DNA from: Bacteroidia bacterium
GTDB taxonomy: Bacteria; Bacteroidota; Bacteroidia; Chitinophagales; UBA2359
NCBI GenBank assembly: GCA_030427245.1
Contig: JAUHXA010000044.1
Coordinates: forward strand, 1 to 60,718
Reading direction: 5' to 3'
DNA: 60,718 nt
Below the pieces are notes generated by a model. It made no database searches. It had not been told where the DNA came from and worked only from the letters and a program-made list of their open reading frames with translations. Both the position numbers and the translations under genes were made by a program. How positions within the stretch are numbered: position 1 is the stretch's first letter; each line of letters begins with the position of its first letter. Positions 50,231 to 60,718 of this stretch are shown piece by piece.

Positions 50231-50232
50231 TT

Positions 50233-50658
50233 AAATCCAAATAAAGTGCAGTTTTTCCCTTCATTGAAGGCTCATATTTGGTGGATTTGCGAATTGCGAT
50301 AGATGAAGTTTGATTTGTGATTTAGCTTTGTTTGTTTTCAAATCAAACTTCGTAAATCATGTAATCATACATCTCAAATCCAAGTAAAGTGCATTTAGGT
50401 TCTTTTACTTTATACGCTCGTATTTGGTGGATTTATGAATTGCGATAGATGAAGTTTGATTTGTGATTTATCTCTGTTTGATTTGTGATTTAGCTTTGTT
50501 TGTTTTCAAATCAAACTTCGTAAATCATGTAATCATACATCTCAAATCCACCAAATACGAGGGGCAAAACTTAAGAATGTAAAAATTATGATTGAGCAAA
50601 AATAAATCACAAATCAAACTTCAAAAATCATACATCTCAAATCCACCAAATACGAGAC
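50233..50658 (+). repeat. Family A palindromic repeats, forward orientation, downstream of mmsA
   Basis: Two full units and one half unit of the family A repeat fill most of the 480-base gap between mmsA and the aminotransferase. The core of each unit is GAAGTTTGATTT, a 25-45-base loop, then AAATCAAACTTC. Conserved pieces ATCATGTAATCATACATC and GTGGATTTGCGAATTGCG flank it, and the spacer contains CTTCATTGAAGGCTC. The last half unit (about 50605-50656) repeats only the right arm. The same sequence recurs at 56.05-56.35, 56.79-57.19 and 59.94-60.72 kb. Confidence 0.9.
50417..50561. mobile_element. MITE-like element with 18-bp terminal inverted repeats
   Basis: CTCGTATTTGGTGGATTT at 50417-50434 is the exact inverse of 50544-50561, so this copy of the family A repeat is a 145-bp element with perfect ends. 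Its inner arms are also inverted (GAAGTTTGATTT/AAATCAAACTTC). No gene fits inside. A target duplication is not obvious. The right end is duplicated at 50639-50656. A miniature inverted-repeat element is the simplest reading, but no parent transposase is in the window. Confidence 0.5.
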
Positions 50659-54670: not shown

Positions 54671-56053
54671 ATGTCAATTTTAATAAAAAACGGAAGAGTC
54701 GTTACGGCGGAGTCCGATTTCATTGCGGACATCTACACCGAAGGCGAACAAATTGTAGCCATTGGAAAAGACCTGTCCTACAAAGCAGACAAAGTAATTG
54801 ATGCAACGGGGAAACTCGTTTTTCCTGGAGGAATTGACCCACACGTTCACTTAGATATGCCGTTTATGGGGACTTCTTCGAGCGACGATTATACCACAGG
54901 TACTCGTGCGGCTTTGCATGGCGGCACAACGATGGTCATTGATTTCATTTTGCAGACGCAAGGAAAATCGCTTTATGATGCCCTCCGAACTTGGCAGCAA
55001 AAATCGCAGGGGAAAGCGATTGGAGATTATTCATACCACATGGCTGTCACCGACTTCAATGACGATGTAGCAAAAGAGGTGGTGCAAATGATTGAAGACG
55101 AAGGCATCATTTCCTTCAAGACTTTCATGGCATACAAAGGCGCATTGATGATTGACGATGGGCAGATGGTGCAATTGATGAAGGTGGTCAAAGAAAATGG
55201 CGGCTTGGTAACGGTTCATGCGACAAATGGCGACATGATTGATTCCTTGATTGCCAAACACCGTTCGGAAGGCAAATTGTCACCACTTTACCACTACCTT
55301 TCACAACCCGAAGTGACCGAAGCCGAAGCCTCTGGACGTTTTGCGGACATGCTTCACTACACAGGTTGCCCTGGTTACATCGTACACATGACCTGCGAAG
55401 GCGCACTCAATGCTGTCCGAAACGCCACTCGCCGCAACCAAAAAGTGTTTGTGGAAACCTGCACACAATACCTCGTTTTGGATGCCTCACTATATGAAAA
55501 AGATTTTGAAGGTGCGAAATGGGTAATGAGTCCTCCTTTGCGGGAAAAAAAGGACCAAACCGCTCTTTGGTCGGGCATCAATCAAGGTTTGGTGCAAGTC
55601 GTTGGAACAGACCACTGTCCCTTCAAATGGGAACAAAAATTGATGGGAAAAGACGATTTCTCGAAAATCCCCAACGGTCATCCTGCAATTGAACACCGCA
55701 TGGAATTGCTCTTTACGGAAGGTGTCAACACAGGAAAAATTTCTTTGAACAAATACGTGGAAGTCACTTCAACAAATGCCGCCAAAATTTTCGGAATGTT
55801 CCCCAAAAAAGGAACGATTGCGATTGGCGCTGATGCAGATTTAGTCATTTTCGACCCCAACAAAAAACACACGATTTCGGTGGATACGCACCACATGAAT
55901 GTGGATTATTCGGCTTATGAAGGATGGGAATTGACGGGCAAAACAGAAACAGTTTTGCTGAGAGGTAAGGTAGCGATTGAAGGGGAGAAATGTTTGTTGG
56001 AGGCTGGTTATGGGCAGTTTGTGAAAAGAGGGAAAACATCGTTGGTTGTTTGA
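54671..56053 (+). CDS. hydA: Dihydropyrimidinase / D-hydantoinase
   Basis: A 460-residue amidohydrolase that opens dihydrouracil or dihydrothymine to N-carbamoyl-beta-amino acids. The binuclear zinc site is complete: His58 and His60 in DPHVHLD, carboxylated Lys150 in ISFKTFMAYKG, His in VTVHATNG, His in YIVHMTCEG and Asp in GTDHCPF. Length and motif spacing match dihydropyrimidinases. It is the second step of the reductive pyrimidine route whose other enzymes surround it. The TGA stop is part of the TTTGATTT of a family A repeat, which begins at the very end of the gene. Confidence 0.95.
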   Translation: MSILIKNGRVVTAESDFIADIYTEGEQIVAIGKDLSYKADKVIDATGKLVFPGGIDPHVHLDMPFMGTSSSDDYTTGTRAALHGGTTMVIDFILQTQGKSLYDALRTWQQKSQGKAIGDYSYHMAVTDFNDDVAKEVVQMIEDEGIISFKTFMAYKGALMIDDGQMVQLMKVVKENGGLVTVHATNGDMIDSLIAKHRSEGKLSPLYHYLSQPEVTEAEASGRFADMLHYTGCPGYIVHMTCEGALNAVRNATRRNQKVFVETCTQYLVLDASLYEKDFEGAKWVMSPPLREKKDQTALWSGINQGLVQVVGTDHCPFKWEQKLMGKDDFSKIPNGHPAIEHRMELLFTEGVNTGKISLNKYVEVTSTNAAKIFGMFPKKGTIAIGADADLVIFDPNKKHTISVDTHHMNVDYSAYEGWELTGKTETVLLRGKVAIEGEKCLLEAGYGQFVKRGKTSLVV

Positions 56054-56345
56054 TTTGGAAACAGAGCGAAATCAAAAATCAAACTTCGTCTATCGCAATT
56101 CATAAATCCACCAGTAATGAGCCTTCAATGAAGAAACAGTAATCGCACTTTGTTTGGATTTAAGATGTATGATTACATGATTTTTGAAGTTTGATTTGGA
56201 AACAGAGCGAAATCAAAAATCAAACTTCGTCTATCGCAATTCATAAATCCACCAGTAAAGAGCCTTCAATGAAGAATTTGAAGCCGCACTTTGTTTGGAT
56301 TTAAGATGTACGATTACATGATTTTTGAAGTTTGATTTGTAATAT
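56051..56345 (-). repeat. Family A repeats, inverted orientation, directly after hydA
   Basis: Two near-identical units (period about 142) in the orientation opposite to the copies after mmsA and preT. They carry GTTTGATTTGGAAACAGAGC, ATCAAACTTCGTCTATCG, AATCCACCAGTAATGAGCC, CTTCAATGAAG and ATGATTACATGATTTTTGAAG. The first unit overlaps the hydA stop codon and the second ends 28 bases before the four-helix-bundle gene. They fill the 319-base gap. Confidence 0.9.
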
Positions 56346-56372
56346 TTTTTTTGAAAATATAATTTTAGAATA

Positions 56373-56765
56373 ATGACGCCAGAAGAACTTGAGGAACGAC
56401 TGATAAATTTTGCTTCAAGAATTATCACTGTAGCAGAAGCATTACCAAAATTACCTGCTGCGAAACATCTTGGCGGACAATTGTATCGTTCAGGAACTTC
56501 ACCTGCACTGAATTATGGAGAAGCAAGAGGAGCAGAGTCAACAGCCGATTTTATTCACAAAAAGAAGATTTGCCTCAAAGAATTGAGAGAAACCTATGTG
56601 TGTCTTCGAATAATGGACAAAAAGAGTTGGTTTAAAAAGGGGCGACTTGATTCAATGCTTCGTGAAAACAATGAACTAATTTCGATTTTTGTATCAAGTG
56701 TCAAAACGGCTGAAAGCAATAGAAAAGCTGAAAAAGAAGGTCGAAGTAACAGGAAAAAGCGTTGA
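56373..56765 (+). CDS. Four-helix-bundle protein (S23/IVS-type)
   Basis: A 130-residue protein of the family named after ORFs in 23S rRNA intervening sequences (TIGR02436-like, distant relatives of the DGR accessory protein Avd). Diagnostic segments are LGGQLYRSGTSPALNYGEA in helix 2, then DFIHKKKICLKELRETYV in helix 3. A Lys/Arg-rich tail (KKR end) fits nucleic-acid contact. The function is unknown in general. It has no place in pyrimidine catabolism and is enclosed by family A repeats in the same orientation on both sides, so it probably arrived with or within the repeats. Confidence 0.85.
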   Translation: MTPEELEERLINFASRIITVAEALPKLPAAKHLGGQLYRSGTSPALNYGEARGAESTADFIHKKKICLKELRETYVCLRIMDKKSWFKKGRLDSMLRENNELISIFVSSVKTAESNRKAEKEGRSNRKKR

Positions 56766-56789
56766 GGTGTAAAACGAGAAATTGTAACT

Positions 56790-57187
56790 GCATTTTGTTT
56801 GGATTTAGGATGTACGATTACATGATTTATAAAGTTTGATTTGAAAACAGAGCGAAATCAAAAATCAAAATTCGTCTATCGTAATTCGCAAATCCACCAG
56901 TCACAAGCCTTCAATGAAGAAGTTAAAGCCGCACTTTATTTGGATTTAGGATGTACGATTACATGATTTTTGAAGTTTGATTTGAAAACAGAGCGCAATC
57001 AAAAATCAAACATCGTCTATCGCAATTCATAAATCCACGAGTAAAGAGCCTTCAATGAAGAAGTTAAAGCCGCACTTTATTTGGATTTAGGATGTACGAT
57101 TACATGATTTGTGATGTTTGATTTGGAAATAGAGTTAAATCAAAAATCAAAATTCAACTATCGTAATTCATAAATCCACCAGTTATG
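56790..57187 (-). repeat. Family A repeats, inverted orientation, after the four-helix-bundle gene
   Basis: About two and a half family A units in the same orientation as those on the other side of the four-helix-bundle gene. Boxes GGATTTAGGATGTACGATT and CAATGAAGAAGTTAAAGCC recur every 140-odd bases, with about 10% divergence between units. They fill most of the 481-base gap before the beta-ureidopropionase gene. A rightward promoter would have to lie in the last 60 bases, where TATTTATTTATAATATTG is the only suggestive stretch. Confidence 0.9.
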
Positions 57188-57246
57188 AGCAAGTAAAGTG
57201 AGAAGATACGACTGTTATTTATTTATAATATTGAAAAGGTACAACT

Positions 57247-58110
57247 ATGAGAAAAATAAAATCAGGTCTTATTCAGATGTCGCTTCCAATGACCGAAGGA
57301 GAAGGAAGTATTGAAGAAATCAAGCAGGCGATGCTTGAAAAGCACTTGCCGTACATTGACGAAGCAGGCAAAAAAGGAGTGCAAATATTGTGTTTGCAGG
57401 AAATCTTCAATACGCCTTATTTTTGCCCAGGTCAAGACCGAAAATGGTATGCTTCAGCGGAATCTATCCCTGGAAAGACCGTTGAGATGATGCAAGAATA
57501 TGCCAAAAAATATCAGATGGTCATGATTGTGCCGATATTTGAAAAAGAGCAGCCAGGAGTGTTGTACAATACGGCAGCGGTGATTGATGCGGACGGAACG
57601 TATTTGGGTAAATATCGCAAAAACCACATTCCACATACCACAGGTTTTTGGGAGAAGTTTTTCTTCAAACCAGGGAATTTGGGTTATCCCGTTTTTCAGA
57701 CAAAGTACGCCAAAATTGGAGTCTATATCTGCTATGACCGACACTTCCCCGATGGAGCGAGAATTTTGGGCTTGAATGGTGCGGAAATCGTTTACAATCC
57801 TTCTGCAACCGTTGCGGGGCTTTCACAATATTTGTGGAAACTCGAACAGCCTGCTCATGCTGCTGCAAATGGCTACTTTATGGGCTGTATCAATCGAGTG
57901 GGAGAAGAAAAACCGTGGGATTTGGGACGTTTTTATGGCACTTCCTATTTTGTCGACCCAAGAGGACAGCTAATTGCAGAAGCCTCCGAATACGATGATG
58001 AATTGCTGATTGCAGAATTTGATTTGGATATGATTGATGAAGTGCGTTCTACTTGGCAGTTTTTTAGGGATAGAAGACCTGAAACTTATGGCAGATTGAC
58101 GGATTTATAA
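57247..58110 (+). CDS. Beta-ureidopropionase / N-carbamoyl amidohydrolase (nitrilase superfamily)
   Basis: A 287-residue CN-hydrolase that splits N-carbamoyl-beta-alanine into beta-alanine, CO2 and ammonia. The Glu-Lys-Cys triad is Glu52 in LQEIFNTPYFCPGQ, Lys125 in YRKNHIPH and Cys162 in YICYDRHFPDGAR. The residues around Cys162 are those of beta-ureidopropionases and N-carbamoylputrescine amidases; the pyrimidine neighbours favour the first. It is 64 bases upstream of a small DUF2786-like gene and, with preT, forms the tightest part of the operon. It supplies the amine used by the class III aminotransferase. Confidence 0.92.
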   Translation: MRKIKSGLIQMSLPMTEGEGSIEEIKQAMLEKHLPYIDEAGKKGVQILCLQEIFNTPYFCPGQDRKWYASAESIPGKTVEMMQEYAKKYQMVMIVPIFEKEQPGVLYNTAAVIDADGTYLGKYRKNHIPHTTGFWEKFFFKPGNLGYPVFQTKYAKIGVYICYDRHFPDGARILGLNGAEIVYNPSATVAGLSQYLWKLEQPAHAAANGYFMGCINRVGEEKPWDLGRFYGTSYFVDPRGQLIAEASEYDDELLIAEFDLDMIDEVRSTWQFFRDRRPETYGRLTDL

Positions 58111-58174: not shown

Positions 58175-58591
58175 ATGCAGGACTTACTTGATAGAATCAA
58201 AAAGATTGAGAACCTAATACTTGGTGCAGCTACAACAGGGGAGAAGAATGCAGCTATGTCTGCCAAAGAAAGGATTTTAAAGAAGTATCCAGAACTTGAA
58301 ATTTATAAAAACCCCACAGAATACAATTTATATACTTCTAATGTGTGGCAGAAAAAATTACTCCTCGCTATTTGTAGAAAATATGGAGTAAAACCGTACA
58401 GGTATCATCGACAAAAATATACCACAGTTATGGTAAATATCAATGAAGAATTTTTAAAAAAGGTTTTATGGAAGGAATATTTGGAATATTCCTCACACCT
58501 TGAAAAATTGATTGCAGGAATAACGGACGATTTAATCAGTAAAATTCACAAGCATCAAGAGGAAGATGTAATTCACAAAACCCTTAACTAA
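58175..58591 (+). CDS. Small DUF2786-like protein of unknown function
   Basis: A 138-residue basic cytosolic protein. The N-terminus (DRIKKIENLILGAATTGEK, then AAMSAKERILKKY) resembles the short DUF2786 helical pair. The C-terminal half has the pattern YGVKPYRYHRQKYTTVMV and a helix with VLWKEYLEY. I do not recognise a function. It lies 64 bases after the beta-ureidopropionase gene and 15 bases before preT, so it is translated from the same transcript. No nucleotide-binding or catalytic motif is visible. It may be an insertion tolerated in the operon or an accessory factor. Confidence 0.6.
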   Translation: MQDLLDRIKKIENLILGAATTGEKNAAMSAKERILKKYPELEIYKNPTEYNLYTSNVWQKKLLLAICRKYGVKPYRYHRQKYTTVMVNINEEFLKKVLWKEYLEYSSHLEKLIAGITDDLISKIHKHQEEDVIHKTLN

Positions 58592-59941: not shown

Positions 59942-60718
59942 GCAGTTTCTTCATTGAAGGCTCATTACTGGTGGATTTGCGAATTACGATAGTTGAATTT
60001 TGATTTGTGATTTATTTGCTTGGTTTTCAAATCAAACTTCAAAAATCATGTAATCATACATCCTAAATCCAAATAAAGTGTGCTGCACCTTCTTCATTGA
60101 AGGCTCATTACTGGTGGATTTGCGAATTACGATAGTTGAATTTTGATTTGTGATTTATTTGCTTGGTTTTCAAATCAAACTTAAAAAATCATGTAATCGT
60201 ATATCCTAAATCCAAATAAAGTGCGATTACTGTTTCTTCATTGAAGGCTCATTACTGGTGGATTTGCGAATTAAGATAGACGAATTTTGATTTGTGATTT
60301 TGCTCTGTTTTCAAATCAAACCTCAAAAATCATGTAATCATACATCCTAAATCCACATAAAGTGCGGTTGCAGTTTCTTCATTGAAGGCTCATTACTGGT
60401 GGATTTGCGAATTAAGATAGACGAATTTTGATTTGTGATTTTGCTCTGTTTTCAAATCAAACTTAAAAAATCATGTAATCATACATCTTAAATCCAAATA
60501 AAGTGCGATTACTGTTTCTTCATTGGAGGCTCGTAGTTGTTGGATTTGCGAATTAAGATAGTTGAATTTTGATTTGTGATTTATTTGCTTGGTTTTCAAA
60601 TCAAACTTAAAAAATCATGTAATCATACATCCTAAATCCAAATAAAGTGCGGTTGCAGTTTCTTCATTGAAGGCTCGTAGTTGGTGGATTTGCGAATTAA
60701 GATAGACGAATTTTGATT
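59942..60718 (+). repeat. Tandem array of family A repeats, forward orientation, running off the window edge
   Basis: At least 5.4 tandem units with starts (TTCTTCATTGAAGG) at 59947, 60090, 60234, 60375, 60516 and 60660, giving periods of 143, 144, 141, 141 and 144. Each unit has GGTGGATTTGCGAATT, TTTTGATTTGTGATTT, AAATCAAACTT, ATCATGTAATCATACATC and AATCCAAATAAAGTGC. Two subtypes alternate in the loop: TTTGCTTGG (units 1, 2, 5) and TTGCTCTG (units 3, 4). No gene is present in these 777 bases. The array continues past the right edge. Confidence 0.93.

Follow-up and report, generated by a model that had tools for sequence, protein, structure and literature searches.

Why does a small four-helix-bundle gene lie between two arrays of one and the same repeat, and is that repeat its particular partner? 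The question is posed by a locus in the window, which is the whole 60,718-nt stretch of DNA that was analysed and an entire contig (C127) of a 7.58-Mb genome in 187 contigs. The sequence-only reading of this DNA had described an S23-type gene nested between same-orientation arrays of a palindromic repeat, here termed family A, with part of a repeat unit duplicated around the gene, and had taken gene and repeats together for a cassette whose spread the repeat might explain.

The nested gene and its arrays

One ORF lies between the two arrays, and its product matches both PF05635 (23S_rRNA_IVP, 44.7 bits against a cut-off of 33.8) and TIGR02436 (four helix bundle protein, 72.3 bits against a cut-off of 24), the nearest solved chain being 2rld_A (E 4.5e-12). 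The gene is therefore of the S23 type, as had been proposed. The features of the locus, with the basis of each in brackets, are as follows.

54671-56053, + strand: upstream co-directional amidohydrolase gene (Amidohydro_1)
56048-56342, + strand: left array, two 141-bp hairpin units and part of a third (repeat analysis, unit fold)
56296-56338, + strand: left arm adjoining the gene (inverted alignment)
56373-56765, + strand: S23 / four-helix-bundle gene, 130 aa (PF05635, TIGR02436, 2rld_A)
56777-57190, + strand: right array of the same 141-bp hairpin unit (repeat analysis; 56777-56846 repeats 56273-56342)
56855-56896, + strand: right arm, complementary to 56296-56338 (inverted alignment)
57247-58110, + strand: downstream co-directional carbon-nitrogen hydrolase gene (CN_hydrolase)
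50231-50648, - strand: oppositely oriented family A array without a detected S23 gene (repeat matches, PF05635 search)
59945-60718, - strand: oppositely oriented family A array that runs to the end of the contig, without a detected S23 gene (repeat matches, PF05635 search)

Tandem Repeats Finder delimited a 141-bp tandem array on each side of the gene, at 56048-56339 (2.1 copies, 94% matches) and at 56790-57183 (2.8 copies, 89% matches), the latter extending to 57190 by single-unit match. Repeat clustering placed both arrays in one family and in the same orientation, and a 70-bp part of the unit does occur on both sides of the gene, 56273-56342 aligning with 56777-56846 at a local score of 95. 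The description of the arrays as same-oriented therefore stands, but it is incomplete as a picture of the locus, each unit being itself a hairpin: the RNA fold of 56150-56260 reaches -25.8 kcal/mol (z -2.98, with 1 of 200 shuffles as good). Since every unit is a hairpin, the left arm is also the reverse complement of an arm to the right of the gene, and the alignment of 56296-56338 with the reverse complement of 56855-56896 scores 33, compared with a maximum of 26 among 400 random slots of the window contig. As RNA, the 616 nt from 56290 to 56905 gained no stability over shuffled versions (z -0.48; 7 of 20 shuffles did as well), although in the minimum-energy structure of this segment the arms are paired with each other.

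On the upstream side, the left array sets in right at the amidohydrolase stop codon (56051-56053); on the downstream side, 56 nt separate the end of the right array from the carbon-nitrogen hydrolase start codon. We take the amidohydrolase to be a dihydropyrimidinase and the carbon-nitrogen hydrolase to be a beta-ureidopropionase; upstream lies a gene for a cytosine/purine-type permease, and downstream one whose product has a dihydropyrimidine-dehydrogenase domain, both on the + strand. Given these domains and the shared strand, the setting of the S23 gene looks like a pyrimidine-degradation operon. A 138-aa ORF without a Pfam match (58175-58591) lies between the carbon-nitrogen hydrolase and dihydropyrimidine-dehydrogenase-like genes.

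At least 54 family A matches were counted across the genome, some candidates having gone unscored; the two further window arrays are among them, and four of these matches make up the arrays beside the window S23 gene. A profile search of the contigs detected three PF05635 genes in all, and by coordinates no other family A match falls within 28 kb of the two copies outside the window, on contigs C31 and C135. The C31 copy, which carries one in-frame TAA and is preceded by an acetaldehyde dehydrogenase gene, has a different 46-bp repeat on both sides, with left and right arrays mutually inverted (score 54). The C135 copy, which is co-directional with both neighbours, has only short octamer runs nearby and no family A, and its inverted flanks are weak (score 24, the 99th percentile of random slots). 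The proposed link of the four-helix gene to family A specifically is contradicted by these two copies, and family A was rejected as the special partner of S23 genes. What survives of the cassette is its general form, PF05635 genes often lying inside inverted arms of their own, with arms that differ in sequence from case to case.

Both the window, at 60718, and another contig of the genome (G000:C125:1-401) end or begin in family A arrays. The assembly therefore seems to be broken by this repeat, and copy numbers are lower bounds.

Inverted flanks and operon gaps across the PF05635 family

Inverted flanks were scored by aligning the left 300-bp flank of a gene to the reverse complement of the right one, with a local score of at least 30 as the threshold. 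The 79 test loci comprised 39 named loci, 7 of the original 46 (L101, L111, L113, L128, L131, L133, L136) having been dropped because the gene lay near a sequence end, and 40 regions hand-picked from search matches, 26 of them from one genus, so that the regions are not independent. The threshold was reached by 59 of the 79 S23 loci, compared with 8 of 446 control ORFs (3 of these 8 look by eye like S23 genes) and 10 of 1920 random slots. Relative to small genes with gaps on both sides the result was 59/79 vs. 4/163, and for the named loci alone it was 27/39 vs. 3/50. Flanks of 60-120 nt gave a less clear picture than 300 nt, with control sets that were small and partly unclean. Direct repeats were rejected as a general signature (7/79 vs. 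18/446, p 0.54).

When the set was widened by 36 short loci and the three copies of the source genome, 76 of 118 loci reached 30 and 42 fell below, the added group alone contributing 17 of 39. The 36 were drawn from 57 short loci (L036-L092), of which 16 are the same genes as regions and 5 (L041, L046, L049, L064, L086) were excluded for being weak or truncated by a contig end. Additionally, 30 loci were held out, being the best-scoring matches of a phylum-wide search; 13 of them reached the threshold and 17 did not, vs. 0 of 720 slots, with a median score of 25 vs. 18. The inverted-flank signal thus repeats in held-out loci, but it is weaker there.

Named loci above the threshold extend beyond Bacteroidota to some labelled as Deltaproteobacteria (L102), Akkermansiaceae (L103), Planctomyces (L114 and L119) and Cloacimonadota (L121); named loci below it include those from Caldilineaceae (L096), Phycisphaerae (L097), Abditibacterium (L104) and Cloacimonadota (L095 and L106). 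Autocorrelation of the flanks is raised at lags of 7, 14, 21 and 28 (0.354 vs. 0.270 at lag 7), and the sequence of the heptamer differs from locus to locus. PF05635 genes, which were found in 176 of 247 Bacteroidota genomes in up to 15 copies, therefore sit in inverted arms of their own far more often than controls, in Bacteroidota and in some other phyla.

The gaps that hold these genes tend to lie within operons. Both neighbours ran in the same direction as the gene for 59 of 79 S23 genes, compared with 225 of 516 control genes. Among the 28 held-out loci where both neighbours could be identified, this was so for 25. Ten neighbour pairs were scanned, and six were judged to be partners in one complex or pathway, the pairs at L098, L105, L109 and L138 not evidently so. 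The six are two CoA-transferase subunits (L117), the T2SS E and F proteins (L102), two oligopeptide-type ABC ATPases (L103), an aminotransferase and a 2-hydroxyacid dehydrogenase (L123), a PAPS-reductase-domain protein and an EF-Tu-like GTPase (L116), and an FtsX-type permease and a LolA-like protein (L121). Further pairs are the small and large chains of ribonucleotide reductase (nrdB/nrdA), two aconitase-family subunits read as leuC and leuD, and an NMN transporter with an AAA_28 protein (L174). In Flavobacterium columnare, a four helix bundle gene is listed between the genes for guanylate kinase and nicotinate mononucleotide adenylyltransferase (PMC5524665, in excerpt), a gene order that agrees with operon placement.

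Combined, these results suggest that the small four-helix-bundle genes are part of a hairpin element and not lone orphans. Very probably, the combination of gene, heptamer arms and operon gap, present or absent as a unit, is a tendency of the whole family.

Presence, absence and selection in genus g57

The empty sites that the earlier reading had proposed to look for were sought in related species, and they exist. Among 14 g57 species, the leuC/leuD gap holds the element in nine, where it measures 516-895 nt; in the five without S23 it measures 17-19 nt in three, 130 nt in one and 738 nt in one (G217, L234). At nrdB/nrdA, the element is present in eight of the 14 species and absent in six, where the gap is 120-304 nt. 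In the loci inspected at the two sites, the arms run from the upstream stop codon to near the downstream start codon.

The 738-nt insert (L234, G217:C136) appears by eye to contain other small ORFs instead of S23, one of whose products we take to be PIN-like. Small accessory genes may use the leuC/leuD gap as a landing site.

No internal stops occur in the 17 S23 ORFs of the two sites, where mean pN was 0.21 and 0.27 vs. pS of 0.76 and 0.83; dN/dS could be estimated for just two sufficiently similar pairs, at 0.10 and 0.01. The left arm matched its own right arm with a mean score of 58, vs. 43 against the arms of other species, at one site and 41 vs. 25 at the other, and its own partner held first place, alone or shared, in 4 of 8 cases at the one and 6 of 9 at the other. 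Because the own-species match is better on average, the arms tend to change together, though not at every locus. The S23 protein is thus under purifying selection while its arms turn over.

All six S23-less nrdB/nrdA gaps (L225-L230) hold a stable RNA structure (z -2.1 to -11.2 against single-base shuffles), and these structures differ in sequence; the gap of G134 (L228) looks heptamer-armed by eye. At leuC/leuD, the idea that the arms represent a pre-existing target hairpin was not supported, three of the empty gaps being too short for one.

A proposed IVS-like hairpin element and its alternatives

The reading that we favour, whose chances we judge to be about even, proceeds by analogy: the S23 element would act at the RNA level like the 23S rRNA intervening sequence (IVS), in this case in operon mRNAs. 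The S23 gene is taken as the coding part of a hairpin element made up of left arm, gene and right arm, with arms of imperfect 7-bp repeats, placed between the genes of one operon. This anatomy is what the data show in many genomes, together with presence or absence at one gap, selection on the protein and arm-only copies elsewhere; its mode of action is the inferred part. The arms would pair in the polycistronic transcript and RNase III would cut the paired stem, freeing the S23 segment; because the cut would fall between cistrons, the host might tolerate the cleavage. The S23 oligomer would probably bind the hairpin and promote the persistence or spread of the element and of its arm-only copies. 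The window element is embedded in tandem copies of its own hairpin unit, so that its flanking repeats look same-oriented.

In the sense-strand arms of 76 loci, G.U outnumbered A.C pairings by 132 to 79, GG+TT and AA+CC being even (61 vs. 59), and this wobble excess did not repeat in the held-out loci (G.U 11 vs. A.C 17). Duplex stability gave the sense strand a borderline advantage, at 31 vs. 22 loci (p 0.05), the named loci being even (11 vs. 12). RNA-level action is therefore weakly supported, and our leaning towards RNA derives from operon placement and the IVS precedent rather than from the wobble and stability tests.

The precedent is the Coxiella rRNA IVS, described as a stem-loop with an S23 ORF that is cut by RNase III (PMC4990558, in excerpt). 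The elements found here share with it a protein of the same family in a stem-loop with complementary ends within a longer RNA, the S23 ORF lying between such ends both in the window (33 vs. a maximum of 26) and in 59 of 79 relatives. They differ in lying in gaps between protein-coding genes, with no Rfam match in the window and no rRNA in 13 other loci scanned, and in having heptamer-repeat arms that vary by locus. Additionally, S23p seems not to be produced in vivo from the Coxiella IVS, which counts against the IVS-like reading, and the S23p ORF there is described as undergoing reductive evolution (both PMC4990558, in excerpt), unlike the S23 ORFs at the two g57 sites. In CPR bacteria, too, 23S_rRNA_IVP ORFs are reported within rRNA insertions (PMC11270868, in excerpt).

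Repetitive extragenic palindromes and their RAYT genes, together with TIRtrons, offer a second likeness, a gene flanked by (inverted) repeats that are also dispersed without it (PMC3733652, in excerpt), and family A is a palindromic repeat that is both dispersed and present on either side of the gene. The nested protein is a four-helix bundle and no tyrosine (Y1/HUH) transposase, PF05635 being its only Pfam match at E 0.001, and the arms are heptamer repeats. Since the IVS differs in location and REP/RAYT in enzyme, the S23 element is filed as IVS-like and as a member of neither. PF05635 also resembles Avd of diversity-generating retroelements (PMC10053308, in excerpt), and no reverse transcriptase was found among five neighbouring window proteins that were scanned. 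Intergenic heptanucleotide repeats (TAACTGA) have been reported in some Bacteroidetes as well; these share the 7-base unit and the intergenic position, but they are reported as direct repeats, and neither 's23' nor 'four helix' occurs in the text available for that source (PMC4679880). No account of PF05635 genes lying within inverted heptamer arms at non-rRNA sites was found in the searchable part of open PMC full text, a collection that leaves subscription journals mostly and preprints wholly outside.

The likeness to REP/RAYT also underlies the first alternative, which we consider rather unlikely: a DNA-level system in which S23 serves to maintain or move dispersed hairpin DNA, one nested gene copy serving many arm-only copies in trans and acting on single-stranded or cruciform DNA with host enzymes. 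Besides the dispersal of family A and the similar flanking of RAYT genes by REPs or inverted repeats (PMC3733652, in excerpt), it draws on the arm-only copies of g57. One g57 arm matches 13 of the 14 genomes, 1-55 times each with S23 arms counted in. Twenty match places fetched from the 13 genomes were intergenic in 12 cases and in predicted ORFs in 8; tblastn found no S23 gene at any of them, and the self-hairpin score was at least 30 at ten, a count made without a control set. Three (L236, L238, L240) are gap-filling hairpins, and L240 lies between convergent genes, a placement that leaves no operon message for it to act in and counts against the IVS-like reading. The DNA-level account also draws on period-7 arrays, which were 11 of the 116 tandem arrays in sampled stretches of ten S23-rich genomes (L340, 4.9 kb, was left out of the count), compared with none of 65 where a PF05635 match at E 1e-10 was lacking (nine genomes); with a genome-level p of 0.045 and kinship unmatched, this association is suggestive only. 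Against the DNA-level system, only four of the ten S23-rich genomes had such arrays, S23 is not known as a nuclease or transposase, and the bias towards operons and one orientation would need an extra reason.

In random stretches, 12 hairpins were counted in 500 kb of five S23-rich genomes, 1 of the 12 with strong 7-bp arms, and the single hairpin in 300 kb of three S23-free genomes was a masked-letter run.

A host regulatory device, in which the hairpin sets the ratio of the flanking messages and S23 is a dedicated RNA-binding regulator, is improbable in our estimation. It would account for the strong purifying selection on S23, for placement between subunits of one enzyme and for the other stable structures in all six S23-less nrdB/nrdA gaps, but closely related species manage without the element, with 17-19 nt at leuC/leuD, and the neighbouring genes are very diverse. 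That S23 genes have no special link to the arms and merely occupy repeat-rich gaps of repeat-rich genomes is the least credible account and can nearly be set aside: intergenic repeats are many in these genomes and clear arms are missing at 42/118 loci and 17/30 held-out loci, but only 4/163 small gap-flanked genes reach the threshold, the direct-repeat score shows no difference, and the signal was repeated in held-out loci.

Beyond the IVS-like reading, a wider one is put forward tentatively, as a possibility that we rate below an even chance: S23 genes with heptamer-armed hairpins may constitute a widespread, unnamed class of mobile elements between operon genes, spreading without a transposase, with arm-only copies as non-autonomous members in the way of REPINs to RAYTs. 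The rRNA IVSs would then be one instance of a wider phenomenon, the case in which an S23 element landed in rRNA. PF05635 is common in Bacteroidota, yet it is named after a rare rRNA site; if many of its genes belong to operon hairpin elements, the protein gains a concrete setting and some heptamer repeats of bacterial genomes a possible source.

Genes of the PD-(D/E)XK family PF13366, presumably those known as 'GxxExxY', may be a second cargo of such hairpins. PF13366 matches occurred in 134 of 198 genomes. Three PF13366-like genes were found in the loci analysed (L175:14038-14415, - strand; L324:16004-16390, - strand; L344:12841-13257, + strand), and two of the three have inverted flanks, scoring 33 and 63, as against 15 for the remaining one. 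L324 had earlier been picked up blind as a long-loop hairpin in the random-stretch count, and the L175 locus also carries strong direct repeats (score 302).
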